Below are positions 19,556 to 46,759 of a stretch of 64,000 nucleotides of DNA, piece by piece. A model generated the notes under the pieces. It saw only the letters and a program-made list of their open reading frames with translations. It did not search any database and was not told the origin of the DNA. Origin of the DNA: Flavobacteriales bacterium (GTDB taxonomy: Bacteria > Bacteroidota > Bacteroidia > CAIKAF01); the NCBI GenBank assembly GCA_022402535.1, contig JAKRSD010000020.1, positions 478,345-542,344 of the forward strand. Reading direction: 5' to 3'. Positions within the stretch are counted from its first letter, which is position 1. Every line of letters begins with the position of its first letter. The translations under genes and the position numbers were made by a program.

Positions 19556-19987
19556 TTATTCTTTTTCGGCAGGAATTTGGATTGGTTTTTCAAATCCCTC
19601 AATAAGCAGAACCAACCCTGTTTTTCGGGTATTTTCCCGAAGGGGCTGAATATCAAACGAGAGGGTTCTTGAAATATTTTTTTCGCATTTTTTATCTGTT
19701 ATATAACCGGAGACAAGAGATGCTTTTGGAGGAAGGCTTTTCATAAGATTACCGTCCCACAAGAGATAAGGTTCCTCGTTTCCGCAACCGACATACATTA
19801 CTTCGAGGGTTAGAATATTTTCTTTTACCAAGGCTGATAAAACCGAAAAACGTTCTGTGGTTTTATTTTCCAGGTATTCTGTTTTCTGCAGTGCGGTTAT
19901 GGGGTTCATGGGACTGATTGTTTTAGTTTTACATCCTAAAATTAAAAGGGGAAATACAGAGTAGAGAATGATAAAAAAACGCTTCAT
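19556..19987 (-). CDS. Small outer-envelope lipoprotein, unknown function
   Basis: 143 residues. The lipobox LILGC places the lipidated cysteine at about residue 18. The mature part has a pair of cysteines (VGCGNEEPYLLWDG and DKKCEK) and a beta-rich pattern. No family recognised. ATG 19987 is chosen because a TACCTTTG -7 box lies at 20016-20009, so the frame's earlier ATG (20011) would not be transcribed. The product is probably anchored in the periplasm or outer membrane. Confidence 0.8.
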   Translation of the reverse strand: MKRFFIILYSVFPLLILGCKTKTISPMNPITALQKTEYLENKTTERFSVLSALVKENILTLEVMYVGCGNEEPYLLWDGNLMKSLPPKASLVSGYITDKKCEKNISRTLSFDIQPLRENTRKTGLVLLIEGFEKPIQIPAEKE

Positions 19988-20008: not shown

Positions 20009-20038
20009 CAAAGGTAGTAATAGCGCGGAATTAGCAAA
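20009..20038 (-). promoter_or_regulatory. Promoter of the 19556-19987 lipoprotein gene
   Basis: Minus-strand TTTG (20038-20035), 18 bases, TACCTTTG (20016-20009). Predicted start near 20003. Confidence 0.65.
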
Positions 20039-20126
20039 AATCGAATTTAAGTGTTAAAAAGTGTTAAGCGCACCTTTTTTCAATATTTTCAAGGAATTAC
20101 AAAATATGTAAAAACAAATTGATACA

Positions 20127-20140: not shown

Positions 20141-20256
20141 AAAGTATGACTATATATACAAGAAAATCAGCAAAATATGACTTTTTAGCAATTTGTACGA
20201 CATTTATAATTTACTTTTTCCCCGGCTTTTTTTCTAACCCTTAACTAGGGCTATTG

Positions 20257-20286
20257 TTGGTGGATTAAATTCTTGCCGTACATTTG
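20257..20286 (+). promoter_or_regulatory. Orphan plus-strand promoter
   Basis: TTG (20257-20259), 19 bases, TACATTTG (20279-20286) is an almost ideal Bacteroidota promoter. The next plus-strand gene is feoA, more than 1.7 kb away behind a terminator. Confidence 0.65.
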
Positions 20287-20291
20287 CCCCA

Positions 20292-20398
20292 GATAAACGA
20301 AACACTTGCTGTTTCTTTATCACAACCTAAATGAGGGTTAAGGGTTAAGGGTTAATTACGAAAGAGCATCACATCCCGTGGTGCTCTTTCGTTTTTTT
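20292..20398 (+). ncRNA. Candidate small non-coding RNA (about 105 nt)
   Basis: The transcript predicted from the orphan promoter would run from about 20292 to the T-run ending at 20398. It has no credible reading frame: its only ATG (20331) gives five codons. It contains three tandem GGGTTAA units (20335-20355) and ends in a strong terminator hairpin. Upstream, outside the transcript, TAACCCTTAA (20235-20244) is complementary to those units. No Rfam family recognised; 6S RNA or a riboregulator are possibilities. Antisense pairing to the convergent phoH end is not involved, since the terminator stops 14 bases before it. Confidence 0.5.
20358..20398 (+). terminator. Strong intrinsic terminator
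   Basis: Arms 20358-20372 and 20378-20392 pair over 15 positions (one G-T), loop ATCCC, then T7. It ends the candidate small RNA and, because the stem is symmetrical and followed by A-rich sequence on the other side, may also serve phoH from the opposite strand less well. Confidence 0.8.
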
Positions 20399-20412
20399 AT
20401 CTGTTTTTGTTG

Positions 20413-21762
20413 TTATAAAAATTCATTTGCCAGATTTGCCAACTCACTTCTTTCGCCCCTTTCAAGGGTTATGTGCGCATGAAGATGATGGGTGTGAATC
20501 CGATCAATTAAATAAGACAATCCGTTACTTTGTGTATCCAGATAGGGAGTGTCTATCTGAAAAATATCGCCTGTAAATACAATTTTAGTGTTTTCTCCAG
20601 CTCGCGTTATGATTGTTTTTACTTCGTGAGGAGTAAGGTTTTGTGATTCATCCACAATAAAAAACACGTTGGAAAGGCTGCGCCCACGGATATAAGCAAG
20701 AGGCTGAATGACTAATTTTTCGTTTTCTAAAAGTTCATTTACTTTTTTTCCCTCTTTTTCGGTTTCACCATACTGACTTTGGATAAATTTCAAGTTGTCG
20801 AAAAGGGGTTCCATGTATGGGTTCAGTTTTGATTTGATATCCCCCGGAAGATATCCGATGTCTTTGTTGCTAAGAGGCACAATAGGCCTTGCTAAATAAA
20901 TCTGGTGAAAATTTCTGCGTTGTTCAATCGCTGCAGCCAATGCCAAAAGCGTTTTTCCTGTTCCTGCCACACCTTGTAGGGTTACCAGTTTTATTTCAGG
21001 GTTTAACAATGCGTCAATGGCAAAAACCTGTTCTGCGTTGCGTGCCTTAATTCCGTATGCATCTCTTCGTTCCACCCTTTCTATCAGGTGTGTTTCGGCA
21101 TTAAAACGGCCTAACACAGAAGATTTTTGATTTCGAATCAGGTAATAATGGTTGGGTATGGGAACTTCTTTCCCGATAAGCTCTTTGGGGCTACAACCCC
21201 CGTCTTTATAAATCTTATCAATAAGAGCGGGATCAACGTCACTTATTTCGGTTTTGCCGGTATATAAGTCCGAAATGTTTCGGATTTTTCCTGTTTCAAA
21301 ATCTTCGGCTTCCACACCTAGCGACTTAGCTTTTATGCGCAGATTGATATCCTTTGAAACCAATACCACATGCCTGTCGGCAAACTCTGTCTGTAATGCA
21401 ATAGCCGCATTTAAAATACGGTGGTCGGGTTTGTTGTCGCCAAATATTTTGCAGGCATCCAGCTCGCGGCTCACCGCATCCTCGCGAACTACTTTAAATT
21501 TTCCTTTGTTTTTTCCCGTCAGCGGAATCCAGTCACTGAAATTATTGCCCAGTCCGTATTCGTCTAAGGTTCTGATAAACTCACGGGCTTCAAAATTTTT
21601 GGTATCGTTTCCCTTTTTAAAGGTGTCCAGCTCTTCTAATACACTGATCGGAAGTGCCACATCATTGTCTTCAAAACAGGTGAAAGCACTGTGATTATAT
21701 AAAATTACCGAGGTGTCTAAAACAAATATTTTTGAATCTTTACTTTTTGATTTTTTGGCCAT
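20413..21762 (-). CDS. PIN-PhoH fusion ATPase (PhoH2-like)
   Basis: 449 residues. An N-terminal PIN nuclease domain (about 12-140, opening FVLDTSVILYNHSAF with acidic residues D and later EELD) is joined to a C-terminal PhoH-like ATPase. The ATPase has Walker A GVAGTGKT near residue 262 and Walker B FFIVDESQNLTPHEVK. PhoH2-type proteins are RNA helicase/RNases. The frame extends to 21843, but the extra residues are not typical, and MAKKSKSKDSKIF gives the usual short N terminus. A stand-alone gene, divergent from feoA. Confidence 0.9.
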   Translation of the reverse strand: MAKKSKSKDSKIFVLDTSVILYNHSAFTCFEDNDVALPISVLEELDTFKKGNDTKNFEAREFIRTLDEYGLGNNFSDWIPLTGKNKGKFKVVREDAVSRELDACKIFGDNKPDHRILNAAIALQTEFADRHVVLVSKDINLRIKAKSLGVEAEDFETGKIRNISDLYTGKTEISDVDPALIDKIYKDGGCSPKELIGKEVPIPNHYYLIRNQKSSVLGRFNAETHLIERVERRDAYGIKARNAEQVFAIDALLNPEIKLVTLQGVAGTGKTLLALAAAIEQRRNFHQIYLARPIVPLSNKDIGYLPGDIKSKLNPYMEPLFDNLKFIQSQYGETEKEGKKVNELLENEKLVIQPLAYIRGRSLSNVFFIVDESQNLTPHEVKTIITRAGENTKIVFTGDIFQIDTPYLDTQSNGLSYLIDRIHTHHLHAHITLERGERSELANLANEFL

Positions 21763-24855: not shown

Positions 24856-24967
24856 GAAATTAACAGGTCAAGCCTTTTTTGTAATTCAAAAAAGCGTAAA
24901 ATTGCACCACTAATCACACTTTTTATAATCAGACCCACCCATTCAAATGTCTTCCAAAATAAGTTGT

Positions 24968-27900
24968 ATGAGAAAACTTCTATTCGTTTGCTTAGCGTCA
25001 GCAACCGTTTTTTCGGCTCTGGGACAAAAAACACAAATTGTTCAGGGAACTCAGGAAAAAACAATTACGTATTCCAATAAAAACAAAGCCGGAGGAGGCG
25101 ATCCGGGTAAATCGGCCAAGTATCCTTCAGGCTTTGAACAAGGCCAGGACTTTGATTGGCTTTATCAAACGGGGGGACCGCTTGATGCATATGACAGAAA
25201 TTCGGAAATTTTGGATTTAAGGGATGCTTTTACCAAGCATTATAAAAACCCTGATGGAAAAATTACGGCCCTGATTACAGCGGGTCCACAACATTATTTC
25301 CAGAATGGGTTGTGGCACACCATTGTAAATAATATTAAGAGTTCGGGGAATGCATTATACCCCAATGCAAACCTCACAAACGATTATAAAACCTACTATG
25401 GCTCTACTCCGGCAGCGGGGATAAAATTTGAAACCCCAGAAGCCATATTTGCTTTTAAAAACCAAAAACTGGTTTATCTGAGTGCCGATTTACAGGTTTT
25501 GGGTGAGGTTGCGCTTACAGATTTTTCCAATACGAATGTAAATCAAGAAACGTTGATTTATCAGAATGTGGCATCAGCCGTTGATTTTCAAATTGAACAA
25601 AGCTCAGCGGGTTTCAGAACCTCTTATGTATTAAATCAACTTCCATCCAATATTCCATCACAAGCCGTATTTATTGGAATTATGGAAGAAATGGAATATC
25701 CCCAACAATGGCAATTGGCAAACAATCAGGGTTGGGCGTCAATTTCAAATCCTTCAGGAGACGGTCATTTGAAAATTTCAAGTATCAATGCATTTGAAAA
25801 AAGCAATGAATATGGAACTACGCAAAAAGGGCAGATAAAACTTTACGAAAGCGGGAAAATGGTGTTTTATTTTCCGTTGGAATGGGTAACGGCGCCTGAG
25901 CGTAACTTTCCAGTGGTGTTAGACCCTACTGTAACCTACACCCCCAACGCCTCTTTATATTGGACAGGAACGGTAGAAGAAGACGGGGGTTGTGATTTTT
26001 CAACCGATAACGATGCGGATGAAAATATGCGTATTGGTTTTGATGACGGCACTTTTGATAATGATTTTTATCAGTGTTATGCCCGTTTCAATATAACGGC
26101 TATCCCTGATAATGCCTGTATCCAAAGTGGACTCACAAGAACCTTTCAATACAACTTCCGTAATGAGAGAAATGACGACAACTTTCTTCGTTTTTATTAC
26201 CAAAACTTAGATCCGTCCAACTTTGATCCGCTTCCCTCAGATTGTTCTGATATTTTCAACAACATTAATAATACAGGTCCTTTTTATACCTTTTATGATG
26301 TTTGGGGGAACTGCGGAGGCCCTTGTACGGATTACAATGAGGCAAACAACGTCTGGAAAGACTGGATAGGAAACACCGGACCCCGTGTACAAAGCTTACT
26401 GGTCCAAAACTGGGTAGTAATTTCATGGGATAATGTTGATAGCCATAGTGATCCCGCCTGGGAAGGTAACGACGAGTGGTTGGATTATCGCGGGTGGGCC
26501 AATGCAAACCGTCCGCAGCTGGTTGTAACATACGAAACACCTTTTATAGCCGCCACTTCTGCATCTGTTTCCCCTAACAATGTGTGTCCTGGTACAAACA
26601 TTACACTTACTCAAAACGGTGGAACCAACGGTTCTGTGGGTTCATGGTTTTGGTATTCAGGATCTTGTGGAGGAACATTGGTGGGTAGTTCTGCTGCGGC
26701 TAACGGGGCGCTGACCATTCCTGCTCCATCGGTTCCAACTACTTATTTTGTTAGAGGTGAGAATATTTGTGGCAACACAATCTGTCAAAGTGTTGTGTTT
26801 ACACCGCTAACGACATCAACGGCCCCAGCAGCAATTAATGCTACTGTAAACCCTGTTTGTCAGGGAGGATCTACACAGCTTTCTGTTTCTGGAGGCTCTT
26901 TAGGATCGGGTGCACAATGGCAGTGGTATACAGGAAGTTGCGGAGGAACGCCCGCAGGAACCGGTACGGCTATTACGGTATCTCCTTCATTAAATACTAC
27001 CTATTTTGTAAGAGCAGAAGGCACGTGCAACACAACCACCTGTGCTTCTCTGGTTGTGAATGTGAGTTCGCCTACCGTAGGAGGCTCAACAGCCGTTGTT
27101 CCATCTACGGTTTGTATAGGAAGCACCGTGGGTTTAACATTGTCCGGCCAAAACGGCGCGGTGGTTAACTGGCAGATGAACGTAAACGGAGGAGGCTGGA
27201 ACTCAATAGGAGGTGCCGGTCTTACGGCCATTACAAGCCCTTCATTAGGAACGGCCGGAACCTATGAGTTTAGGGCCGTGGTTCAAAATTCACCTTGTGC
27301 GTCTCAATTCTCGTCCGTTTCTACGGTAACCGTTAACGGCCTTTCTGTTGGTGGCACTGCAGCCCCTGCAATATCACCGGTTTGTCTTGGTGGAAACACC
27401 ACCGTTTCTTTATCAGGAAGTACGGGGTCCGTGATAACTTGGGAGCGTCGAATTAATGGCGGCGGCTGGGTTAACATTGGCAATGCCGGACTAACCACCA
27501 TACCTACAGGAGTGTTAAACACGGTTGGTACTTGGGAATTCCGCGCTACGGTTCAAAATGCCCCCTGTGCTTCGGTGTTTAGTACCATAGCAGTAATTGA
27601 TGTAAGCCCATTATCTGTAGGTGGTGCTGCATCAGCCTTATCCGCTCAGCTTTGTGATGGAGGTTCAACAACCATATCGTTAAGTGGTCAAACGGGTACC
27701 GTATTATTTTGGGAACTTCAAATAAACGGTGGTGGATTTAATAATATCGGGAATGCGGGTCTTACCTCCATTTCAACCGGAGCCCTTGCTCCGGGAACGT
27801 ATGATTATCGTGCGGTAGTTCAAAGTGCCCCCTGTGCATCGGCTACATCATCCTCTGTTTCAGTTACCGTAAGCACGGTTACTGTCGGTGGTTCTGCAAT

Positions 27901-30900
27901 TCCTTCTGTAGGTCAGCTTTGTCAGGGTGGAAACACAAATATTACACTTACCGGAAACAACGGAACCATTTTATTCTGGGAACAACAGATTAATAGCGGC
28001 GGCTGGGTTAATATCGGCAATGCCGGCTTATCCCTGATTAACTCTGGAGCCCTTGGTGCAGGCCTGAATGAATTCAGGGCTGTAATTCAAAGCGGAGGAT
28101 GTCCTTCAGCGAACTCTGCCATTGCGGTGGTGAATGTTGACCCCACTACGGTTGGAGGTTCTGTTTCTTCAAACTTTATCAGCGTGTGTGACGGCTCTCC
28201 CGTTACATTGACTTTGGCAGGAAACACCGGAGCCATAACGCAATGGGAGCGTCAGTATAACGGCGGCGGTTGGATTTCCGTTGGCAACGCGGGCGTAAAC
28301 CCATTCACAACAGGTCCGTTAACGCCATTCGGCACCTACGAATTTAGGGCACTGGTAACCAGCGGACTTTGTGCTCCGGTATACAGTGCTTCGGTTTCGG
28401 TGTTGGTTAACGAAAATGATGATCCCACATTCAGCTATTCATCATCCGTATTTTGTCAAGGTGGAACAAACGTTGCTCCTACATTCACTACGGGTGGAGG
28501 AACATTCAGTGCATCGCCGGCCGGTTTGGCCATTAATCCATCAAACGGGATTATTGACTTAAGCGCAAGTGCTCCGGGTCTTTACATCGTTACGCATACC
28601 ACTTCGGGTGTTTGTTCTGCTTCAGCTACACAAACCATTAATATCAGTTCTTCATCGAATACATCTTTCAGTTATGCATCTCTTTCATATTGTTTGAATG
28701 CTCCTTCTAATCCGGTTCCAACAGTAACATCTCCCGGAGGTACTTTCACTTCACTGAACCCTGGATTACTGTTTGTAGATCCGATTACCGGTGAAATTAA
28801 TTTATCCATCAGCCAACCGGGTTCTTATTTTGTTGAGTATTCTATCGGAGGTTCATGTCCGTCATCAACAATCCAGACTGTGATTCTACTTGCTCCGGGC
28901 AACTCATCGTTTACTTATGCGGCTCCTTCTTATTGTTTAGGAAGCGGAACGGTTGCGCCTGTTGTAGGTGCATTTGGAGGCACATTCAGTGCTTCACCGT
29001 TCGGAATTATTTTTGCCAATGCGGCAACGGGGGCCATTGATTTAGGAACATCTTCTCCCGGAACGTATACAGTTACCTATAACTCCGGAGGTCCTTGTCC
29101 TACAATAACTAATCAAACGGTTACCTTAAACTTACCGGCAGATCCGCTCTTTTTCTATGCTTCTTCTACTTATTGTAAAGCGGGAACAAATCCAACACCA
29201 TTTGTATCCAGTCCGGGCGGAGGATTTACAAGCTCTCCGGCAGGATTAATTTTTGTGAATCCGGCAACAGGTGAAATCAGCTTGGCGGCATCACAACCCG
29301 GAAGTTACGTAGTAACGTATTCCACAGGGGGGCTATGTCCAACATCTTATACACAAGACATTACTATCGTAGCAAACCAGAATGCCACATTTGTTTATTC
29401 ACAAAACAGTTATTGTCAGAATGGAGTGAATCCCACGCCGACGGTTGCACAAATCGGAGGGGTGTTTACCTCTACTCCGGGACTTGTTTTTACTAATGCC
29501 TTTACAGGACAAATTAACTTAGCGGCATCAACCCCGGGAGCTTATACGATTACCTACACGGTTCCCGGAACCTGTATCGGGGTTTACACGCAAAACATTA
29601 CGATTAACTCAGGTGCTGTGGGCACGCTTTCTTATGCGGCTTCCAGTTTCTGTACGGGAGGTGTTAACGCACCGGCTACGGTTACCCCTGCGGGAGGAAC
29701 CTTTACCTCGTCTCCGGCAGGTTTGTTCTTTGCCGATGCAAACGGAACCATAAACGTGGCGGGTTCAGTGCCGGGAGCGTATACCATTACTTACACTCCG
29801 GCCGGCACTTGCGTTACTCCAGCTTCGGTTAACGTATCTATTATCAACACTCCGCAGCCGTTGATTCAACCGGTTGGCAACCTGTGTACAAACTCACCGG
29901 CCTTAACCATAAATGGTTCACCGGCAGGAGGCACATGGTCCGGAGGAACATTTATCAGCCCATCTGGAGTGTTTGATCCTTCTGCTTCCGGTGCGGGTTC
30001 TTTTGTAGTTACGTATTCGGTAACTGGTCCGGGTGGTTGTGTGGGCACAGCCAATACAACCATTGTGGTGAATCCTGCACCGGCTGTAAATATTACGGCA
30101 GCCGGTCCATATTGTTCTAACGATGGAATTCAAACTCTTTCGGCCACACCATTGGGCGGAACATGGAGCGGAAACCCGTTTGTTTCAATCAACGGATTGT
30201 TCTTCCCTTCAAATTCTGGTGCCGGTTTATTTCCGGTTCAGTACACCGTGAATACAGGCGGATGCACCAGTTCGTCAATTATTAATATTCAAGTATTCGA
30301 TGCTCCGCAGCCGCTGATTAATCCTGTGGCGCCTATTTGTGCAAACGGTGCCCCAATCGGCTTGTCCGCAACGGTTCCAGGAGGTATTTGGTCAGGAGGG
30401 GCTTATGTTACCTCTAATGGAACATTTAATCCGGCCTTAGCGTCATTAGGAAACAATACGGTTACCTACACCTTGGTTTCCGGCGCTTGCTCTGTATCTG
30501 TAAGTTCACAGGTTACTGTGAGCGGTGTGCCCAATGTTCAACTGATTACACCGGCTCCTTTCTGTACTAATGATCCGTCACAATACATTCTGGCCAATCA
30601 GCCTGGAGGTGTATTTGTCGGAGGTAATTATATTAACGGTTCCGGATTATTTGATCCGGGTCTGGCTTCACAGGGGAATAACATTGTGATTTATACCCTG
30701 GTGGGCAACAATGGCTGCGTGGGTTCAGATACTATTCAGGTAGTGGTGAATTCAAATCCCGATGCAACCATCACCTATCCGGGCACAGTTTGTCAGGATG
30801 CACCACCGTTTGCGCTTACTGCAGCTACCGGAGGCGGAGTATGGTCTGGAGGAGTATATGTGAACTCCGGCATTTTTGACCCATCGGTGGCGGGTGTAGG

Positions 30901-31486
30901 AAATCATGCGGTGGTATACAATGTTTCTTCCGGACAGGGCTGTTCTTCCACATCTTCTATATTCATTACCGTAGAACCTAAGCCTATTGCGTTGTACGAT
31001 CATCAGCCAAACGGACTTACGGTTTATTTTACCGACCTGTCTCAATTTGCGGATACTTATCTATGGAATTTTGGTGACGGATCTCCTGAAGTGACGGATC
31101 AAAATCCGGTGCACGTGTTCCCCGATAACGGAGTTTATCTGGTGAGACTTATTGCCTATAATGAATGCGGTTCGGATACGCTCATTCGTTCAGTGGCGGT
31201 GAATAAAGCCACATCTATAGACGAAAATGGTTCATCGATTCAAGTGCAGTTGTTCCCGAATCCAGCCGATCAATTTGTGAATCTGACAGGATCCCAGATT
31301 GCTCCCGGTATGTGGACAATTCGCATGAGCGACATGTCGGGCAAAGAAGTAATGCTGGAAAGATTTAGTGTAGAAACAGGAGAACTTAATAAGACGATTG
31401 ATGTAACGGCATTGAATCCCGGAATATACTTCATCCGATTGTCTGATGGAAATGTATCGACCACGCTGAAGTTTATTAAATTTTAA
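24968..31486 (+). CDS. Giant Ig-repeat adhesin with PKD domain and T9SS type A domain
   Basis: About 2172 residues (2179 if ATG 24947 is used; numbers here follow 24947). Signal peptide to about 27. Residues 60-330 and 335-530 are beta-rich N-terminal regions, the second resembling a carbohydrate-binding or DNRLRE-like module. Two Ig-like units (532-706) lead into three tandem repeat families: five units of about 90 (711-1155), six of about 80 (1160-1635) and five of about 75 (1638-2010). Each unit has a conserved cysteine pattern. A PKD domain with YLWNFGDGSP (2014-2086) and a T9SS type A domain (VQLFPNPADQF) end the protein. It is the first gene of a four-gene surface cassette, overlapping the next frame by one base. 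A fibrous adhesin is the natural reading; its ligand is unknown. Confidence 0.9.
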   Translation: MRKLLFVCLASATVFSALGQKTQIVQGTQEKTITYSNKNKAGGGDPGKSAKYPSGFEQGQDFDWLYQTGGPLDAYDRNSEILDLRDAFTKHYKNPDGKITALITAGPQHYFQNGLWHTIVNNIKSSGNALYPNANLTNDYKTYYGSTPAAGIKFETPEAIFAFKNQKLVYLSADLQVLGEVALTDFSNTNVNQETLIYQNVASAVDFQIEQSSAGFRTSYVLNQLPSNIPSQAVFIGIMEEMEYPQQWQLANNQGWASISNPSGDGHLKISSINAFEKSNEYGTTQKGQIKLYESGKMVFYFPLEWVTAPERNFPVVLDPTVTYTPNASLYWTGTVEEDGGCDFSTDNDADENMRIGFDDGTFDNDFYQCYARFNITAIPDNACIQSGLTRTFQYNFRNERNDDNFLRFYYQNLDPSNFDPLPSDCSDIFNNINNTGPFYTFYDVWGNCGGPCTDYNEANNVWKDWIGNTGPRVQSLLVQNWVVISWDNVDSHSDPAWEGNDEWLDYRGWANANRPQLVVTYETPFIAATSASVSPNNVCPGTNITLTQNGGTNGSVGSWFWYSGSCGGTLVGSSAAANGALTIPAPSVPTTYFVRGENICGNTICQSVVFTPLTTSTAPAAINATVNPVCQGGSTQLSVSGGSLGSGAQWQWYTGSCGGTPAGTGTAITVSPSLNTTYFVRAEGTCNTTTCASLVVNVSSPTVGGSTAVVPSTVCIGSTVGLTLSGQNGAVVNWQMNVNGGGWNSIGGAGLTAITSPSLGTAGTYEFRAVVQNSPCASQFSSVSTVTVNGLSVGGTAAPAISPVCLGGNTTVSLSGSTGSVITWERRINGGGWVNIGNAGLTTIPTGVLNTVGTWEFRATVQNAPCASVFSTIAVIDVSPLSVGGAASALSAQLCDGGSTTISLSGQTGTVLFWELQINGGGFNNIGNAGLTSISTGALAPGTYDYRAVVQSAPCASATSSSVSVTVSTVTVGGSAIPSVGQLCQGGNTNITLTGNNGTILFWEQQINSGGWVNIGNAGLSLINSGALGAGLNEFRAVIQSGGCPSANSAIAVVNVDPTTVGGSVSSNFISVCDGSPVTLTLAGNTGAITQWERQYNGGGWISVGNAGVNPFTTGPLTPFGTYEFRALVTSGLCAPVYSASVSVLVNENDDPTFSYSSSVFCQGGTNVAPTFTTGGGTFSASPAGLAINPSNGIIDLSASAPGLYIVTHTTSGVCSASATQTINISSSSNTSFSYASLSYCLNAPSNPVPTVTSPGGTFTSLNPGLLFVDPITGEINLSISQPGSYFVEYSIGGSCPSSTIQTVILLAPGNSSFTYAAPSYCLGSGTVAPVVGAFGGTFSASPFGIIFANAATGAIDLGTSSPGTYTVTYNSGGPCPTITNQTVTLNLPADPLFFYASSTYCKAGTNPTPFVSSPGGGFTSSPAGLIFVNPATGEISLAASQPGSYVVTYSTGGLCPTSYTQDITIVANQNATFVYSQNSYCQNGVNPTPTVAQIGGVFTSTPGLVFTNAFTGQINLAASTPGAYTITYTVPGTCIGVYTQNITINSGAVGTLSYAASSFCTGGVNAPATVTPAGGTFTSSPAGLFFADANGTINVAGSVPGAYTITYTPAGTCVTPASVNVSIINTPQPLIQPVGNLCTNSPALTINGSPAGGTWSGGTFISPSGVFDPSASGAGSFVVTYSVTGPGGCVGTANTTIVVNPAPAVNITAAGPYCSNDGIQTLSATPLGGTWSGNPFVSINGLFFPSNSGAGLFPVQYTVNTGGCTSSSIINIQVFDAPQPLINPVAPICANGAPIGLSATVPGGIWSGGAYVTSNGTFNPALASLGNNTVTYTLVSGACSVSVSSQVTVSGVPNVQLITPAPFCTNDPSQYILANQPGGVFVGGNYINGSGLFDPGLASQGNNIVIYTLVGNNGCVGSDTIQVVVNSNPDATITYPGTVCQDAPPFALTAATGGGVWSGGVYVNSGIFDPSVAGVGNHAVVYNVSSGQGCSSTSSIFITVEPKPIALYDHQPNGLTVYFTDLSQFADTYLWNFGDGSPEVTDQNPVHVFPDNGVYLVRLIAYNECGSDTLIRSVAVNKATSIDENGSSIQVQLFPNPADQFVNLTGSQIAPGMWTIRMSDMSGKEVMLERFSVETGELNKTIDVTALNPGIYFIRLSDGNVSTTLKFIKF
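27077..28420 (+). repeat. Adhesin repeat family A, five units of about 90 residues
   Basis: Units start near VGG at residues 711, 801, 891, 980 and 1069. The shared core is C-x-G-G-x-T, then a W-x-x-x-x-NGGGW strand, NIGNAGLT, and EFRAVVQ-x-APCAS. The DNA is also similar between units, so recombination could change copy number. Confidence 0.85.
28424..29851 (+). repeat. Adhesin repeat family B, six units of about 80 residues
   Basis: Units begin at F-x-Y-x-x-x-x-YC near residues 1162, 1241, 1322, 1402, 1482 and 1561. Each has GGTFTSSPAGL, INPxTGEIxL and SxPGxYxVTYxxxGxC blocks, as in the SprB-type repeats of other Bacteroidota. Confidence 0.85.
29852..30979 (+). repeat. Adhesin repeat family C, five units of about 75 residues
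   Basis: Units begin near residues 1638, 1714, 1789, 1864 and 1940. Each carries a cysteine, GGxWSGG, SGxFDPS and VxYxVxxxxGC. This family resembles the gliding-adhesin-type Ig units and abuts the PKD domain. Confidence 0.85.
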
Positions 31487-43246: not shown

Positions 43247-43277
43247 TTTGCAAATTTATTTGTGAGTGTTACCTTTG
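43247..43277 (+). promoter_or_regulatory. Promoter of tRNA-Gly
   Basis: TTTG (43247-43250), 19 bases, TACCTTTG (43270-43277): the best promoter match in the window. Start is expected near 43283, 33 bases before the tRNA. Confidence 0.8.
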
Positions 43278-46729: not shown

Positions 46730-46759
46730 TTGCAGTGTCAGAGACGAACGATACTTTTG
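46730..46759 (+). promoter_or_regulatory. Promoter of the two-component operon
   Basis: TTG (46730-46732), 19 bases, TACTTTTG (46752-46759). Start near 46765, about 20 bases before ATG 46785. Confidence 0.7.

Follow-up and report, generated by a model that had tools for sequence, protein, structure and literature searches.

The segment at 20257-20398 on the + strand of the 64,000-nucleotide stretch analysed here (the window) is likely to be an independent gene that encodes an intergenic small RNA of ~108 nt, which we consider the best explanation of the unit as a whole. That the unit yields a real short transcript appears very likely, and we suggest more tentatively that this RNA would act in trans as a non-coding regulator. 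A first-pass annotation had read the segment as a candidate small RNA, and this appears to be the best-supported reading, with a promoter of tRNA grade and a directional terminator in its favor and no open reading frame, tRNA, Rfam family or leader role found. In its best reading the unit would be a lineage-specific intergenic sRNA, an ordinary kind of gene. Its features and those of its neighborhood are collected in Table 1.

Table 1. Predicted features of the unit and flanking genes (positions in the window).
Feature	Position	Strand	Remarks
Small lipoprotein-like protein	19556..19987	-	LxxC motif; no Pfam family
Divergent promoter of the lipoprotein gene	20009..20037	-	TTG-N18-TACCTTTG
Inverted near-copy of the transcribed repeat	20234..20244	+	CTAACCCTTAA; just upstream of the -33 box
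-33 box	20257..20259	+	TTG; spacing 19, as in most tRNA promoters of the same genome with an exact TTG
-7 box	20279..20286	+	TACATTTG; fits the Bacteroidota sigma-A consensus TAnnTTTG; followed by the discriminator CCCCAG
Predicted small RNA	20291..20398	+	~108 nt; start placed from the position of the -7 box
5' stem-loop	20292..20321	+	GATAAACGAAACA-CUUGC-UGUUUCUUUAUC; from fold and pairing probabilities
Three tandem GGGUUAA units	20335..20355	+	mostly unpaired in the predicted fold
Intrinsic terminator	20358..20398	+	15-bp hairpin and T7; from fold prediction and terminator scan
Convergent PIN + PhoH-type ATPase gene	20413..21762	-

The promoter motif TTG-N19-TACATTTG (full sequence TTGGTGGATTAAATTCTTGCCGTACATTTG), which the first-pass annotation had described as near-ideal, is present at 20257-20286 (+), and TAnnTTTG is the sigma-A -7 consensus of Bacteroidota (PMC9723704, PMC7366714). 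By itself the motif is unremarkable, with three exact matches in the window versus 1.84 expected, which is near chance level. The other two exact matches, at 43248-43277 and 46730-46759, lie 39 bp before a tRNA-Gly gene and 27 bp before the ATG of a response-regulator gene, so that TTG-N19-TAnnTTTG seems to mark real promoters here. We also scored the window with a matrix made from 24 sites in the upstream regions of the genome's own tRNA genes; because these training sites were picked by their TAnnTT[TC]G core, the core part of the score is circular, whereas neither the spacing to TTG nor the GC-rich bases behind the box entered into that choice. The candidate scores 17.2 (training-set range 6.8-29.9), a value reached 0.35 times per 128 kb in random sequence of the same composition, and it ranks fourth among ~128,000 window positions, in the company of two tRNA promoters and one response-regulator promoter. 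Its discriminator has a GC content of 5/6, versus a mean of 4.2/6 for the tRNA promoters and 2.4/6 for the other intergenic matches. The analysis supports a promoter that would match the genome's own tRNA promoters in kind and strength, and a tRNA-type discriminator suggests high, growth-linked expression, which should make the RNA easy to detect.

The tRNA promoters of this genome (L121-L150) have a GC-rich discriminator, for example TTTGCACCC or TTTGCAGCCC, directly after the -7 box. Elsewhere in the genome, a non-tRNA intergenic site (L227, +, box end at 1215) has the same GC-rich discriminator and may be the marker of another stable RNA. A matrix of TTG-N19-TAnnTTTG followed by a CNCCC-like discriminator could be used to locate stable-RNA genes in Bacteroidota that have not been cultured.

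At the other end of the unit, the terminator hairpin with 15 bp and T7 is present as it had been described (ACGAAAGAGCATCAC-ATCCC-GTGGTGCTCTTTCGT, 20358-20392; 15 pairs, with one T of the T7 paired). Among the terminator-like sites compared over 10 kb it is the strongest, and it is directional on the + strand. The co-occurrence of promoter and terminator is beyond chance, with a very low joint probability: when we simulated the motif with a spacer of 17-20 followed within ~200 nt by a stem and a T tract, the expectation was 0.047 per 64-kb window for stems of 8 bp or longer, and none of 150 simulated windows contained the combination when the stem had to reach 12 bp.

Terminators are frequent at convergent gene ends, and the hairpin might serve there simply as a barrier that keeps stray + strand transcription out of PhoH, or that ends the PhoH transcript on the - strand, in which case the promoter match would be spurious or weak, as the near-chance count of the motif alone would allow. 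Against this, the matrix score ranks with those of real tRNA promoters and the discriminator agrees; the T tract faces the + strand only, so that the hairpin is unsuited to PhoH; and there is no upstream + strand gene whose transcript needs stopping. We consider a barrier role distinctly unlikely.

In Flavobacterium the -7 box has been mapped at -12 to -5 relative to the start (PMC9723704), and the same placement here would put the start near 20291 and give an RNA of ~108 nt. The fold of this predicted RNA is 5.7 sd better than that of dinucleotide shuffles (z = -5.7). Pairing probabilities give two hairpins, at 20292-20321 and 20358-20392, with the repeats in a largely unpaired segment between them; these are the three tandem GGGTTAA units that the first-pass annotation had already placed in the transcript, and the first of them is predicted to be able to pair with AACCU at 20324-20328. 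The triplet, GGGTTAAGGGTTAA, has no second exact copy in the genome, and 0.00 copies are expected in the window. The earlier description made no mention of the 5' hairpin, the upstream CTAACCCTTAA or the tRNA-like discriminator.

No + strand ORF of at least 20 aa lies between the start site and the terminator hairpin, in agreement with the absence of an open frame reported before. The transcript could still be a tiny-peptide mRNA, since an ATG at 20331-20333 stands in an A-rich context (CCTAAATG) and AAATGAGGGTTAAGGGTTAA could encode MRVKG; a TTG-initiated frame of 11 codons is the other possibility. The ATG frame, however, has five codons, falls within the repeat and is without relatives, and with no ORF of at least 20 aa in the + strand transcript body we find such a peptide very improbable.

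The position of the unit among its neighbors bears on two further proposals. Upstream, ruvB and queG come after the lipoprotein-like gene on the - strand. Downstream, the PhoH stop codon lies 15 bp past the end of the unit, also on the - strand, and the next + strand gene is feoA/feoB at ~22 kb. With no + strand gene before feoA/feoB and PhoH on the - strand, the unit would not be a leader or attenuator, and attenuator, leader and riboswitch were rejected because no same-strand gene follows just past the terminator.

The closeness of the PhoH stop codon raises the question of convergent antisense control, in which RNA pairing or polymerase collision would set the 3' end or the stability of the PhoH mRNA. 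On the - strand, positions 20412 to 19990 hold no terminator-like site, and since PhoH is without a U-tract terminator of its own on that strand, its 3' UTR probably enters the unit; it would then reach 20358-20400 or beyond and be fully complementary to the small RNA. A strong fold (z = -6.8) is also predicted for the - strand of the region, but the hairpin is a near-palindrome and a - strand fold comes free with it. Further, within 450 bp downstream of 80 PhoH loci of relatives there was no exact opposite-strand promoter of this type, so that the arrangement is absent in 80 of 80, and a tRNA-grade promoter exceeds what such a role needs. Antisense control of PhoH therefore appears unlikely to us as the explanation of the unit. 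A related proposal, a Rho-dependent or processed RNA from the PhoH 3' UTR, is kept only as a rival to the free-standing small RNA.

To place the candidate small RNA among known families and relatives, we ran a set of homology searches. The comparison with Rfam, which had been proposed with the first description, gave no family match at the gathering threshold, and with relaxed settings (E up to 10) only weak matches below gathering appeared, such as the rimP and Phe leaders; a tRNA and tmRNA search of the unit returned nothing. GibS and FopS sRNAs were discarded, since Rfam returned no gathering match and, with E allowed up to 10, still none of these families, as was 6S RNA, for which there was no Rfam match and whose one long rod with a central bubble differs from the two separate hairpins predicted here. 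BLAST against 60 relatives and 16 genomes of the family (E <= 0.001) found no homologue, a result that says little on close-range conservation, because the family members compared are distant and lie outside the genus (PhoH identity of the nearest, at most 78%). An alignment with a known gene fragment, which had been named at the outset as evidence against a small RNA, was looked for in the homology searches and did not turn up.

A covariance model made from the single sequence gave matches in about 20 of 295 genomes of the class. These were rejected as homologues, since in the alignments inspected it is mostly generic terminator hairpins that are matched, several of them on both strands. With no sequence homologue found outside the source genome, the unit presents neither covariation nor a trace of selection. 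The 5' hairpin also has a cluster of short DNA matches in relatives, but most of these fall inside coding genes and they were judged to be chance, and a BLAST match in one class member (G042) was set aside as covering only a TTAACCC repeat in another intergenic region. In that genome, TTAACCC and TTAACAC repeats adjoin each other in an unrelated intergenic region (L003, 1510-1551), so that words like the GTGTTAA pair at 20051-20067 of the window are present next to TTAACCC there too.

The unit is present as a single copy in its genome. No copy was found among phages and plasmids or in exact scans of viral contigs, and this weighs on the proposal that it is a MITE-like non-autonomous mobile element with TTAACCC/GGGTTAA inverted ends around an internal hairpin. 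The upstream CTAACCCTTAA and the downstream GGGTTAA are indeed inverted with respect to each other, but an element with no second copy in the genome and none in relatives, plasmids or phages, and with its terminator outside the supposed ends, is scarcely credible as a mobile one.

The small-RNA reading can be compared with systems characterized in the same phylum. In B. thetaiotaomicron, the high-confidence intergenic sRNAs were those with a transcription start site and an intrinsic terminator, and 27 of the 49 are strain-specific; 9 of 11 candidates were validated by Northern blot, and eight of these had both features (PMC7366714). The unit has the corresponding features at the level of sequence: a housekeeping-type promoter of its own, an intrinsic terminator of its own and no coding frame. 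It resembles the BTnc class of Bacteroides thetaiotaomicron, including GibS (PMC7366714), in being intergenic, in its sigma-A TAnnTTTG promoter and Rho-independent terminator, in being AT-rich with an unfolded stretch, and in the frequent lineage specificity of the class; it differs in showing no sequence similarity to it (no Rfam match) and in its tRNA-like, GC-rich discriminator. Like the FopS family of the RbpB network (PMC11697453), the predicted RNA has a single-stranded stretch with a terminator hairpin behind it, and RRM_1 proteins are encoded in the genome; unlike FopS, a multicopy family which is in Rfam (PMC11697453), the unit is single copy and without an Rfam match, and it has an additional 5' hairpin and the GGGUUAA tract. 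The Rfp transcripts of Flavobacterium psychrophilum, such as Rfp18 (PMC9723704), are similarly short and independent, and they too are predicted to be strongly structured and have sigma-A promoters; Rfp18 differs in its genus-wide conservation and supported targets. If transcribed, the unit would add to the orphan sRNAs of a sparsely studied branch of the Bacteroidia, unusual in its exposed heptamer repeat and tRNA-type discriminator, and the candidate by itself settles no long-standing question.

As to how such an RNA might work, we propose that the housekeeping sigma-A holoenzyme would start transcription at the tRNA-like promoter and that the unit's own intrinsic terminator would end the RNA, leaving a 5' hairpin, an exposed tract of three GGGUUAA units and the terminator hairpin. 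The two hairpins would shield the ends of the RNA, and the single-stranded G-rich repeats could act as a reiterated seed on mRNAs with UUAACCC-like stretches. This repeated-seed idea is weakened by the count of sites complementary to the tract, since with up to two mismatches the genome holds 33 GGGTTAAGGGTTAA-like sites versus 51 for the reversed control. As GGGTTAAGGGTTAA-like words are the rarer ones, it is from the anatomy of the unit that we infer action in trans, and transcription, the start site and the seed are likewise put forward conditionally. Alternatively, the repeats might offer several binding positions to an RNA-binding protein, such as one of the two RRM_1 proteins that the genome encodes above the cut-off. 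The tandem GGGUUAA units might even act as a sponge for such a protein, for example an RRM_1 protein, or as the place where it assembles, under tRNA-like control and with CsrB-like titration, which seems to us quite improbable; we know of no CsrB-like titration device in Bacteroidota. RbpB, the Bacteroides sRNA partner, belongs to the RRM_1 family (PMC11697453).

We also looked at the repeat as DNA. The copy of CTAACCCTTAA just upstream of the -33 box is a possible candidate operator, and it shares a 400-bp intergenic region with the GGGTTAA triplet and with a GTGTTAA pair at 20051-20067. Genome-wide, TTAACCCTTAA with one mismatch gave 77 matches versus 177 for the reversed control, with CTAACCCTTAA among the matches listed. 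Reading these words as a genome-wide operator or as repeated targets was dropped, the GGGTTAA words being without genome-wide enrichment. Two one-mismatch relatives of GGGTTAAGGGTTAA occur in the genome (L172, C9:142022; L173, C27:7639), both of them intergenic and beside terminator hairpins.

Elsewhere in the window, positions 24947-31486 hold a 2179-aa ORF made of repeated modules, PKD-like in part and with a sorting-type tail at the C-terminus, and on a reading of its translation the product is probably a secreted surface protein.
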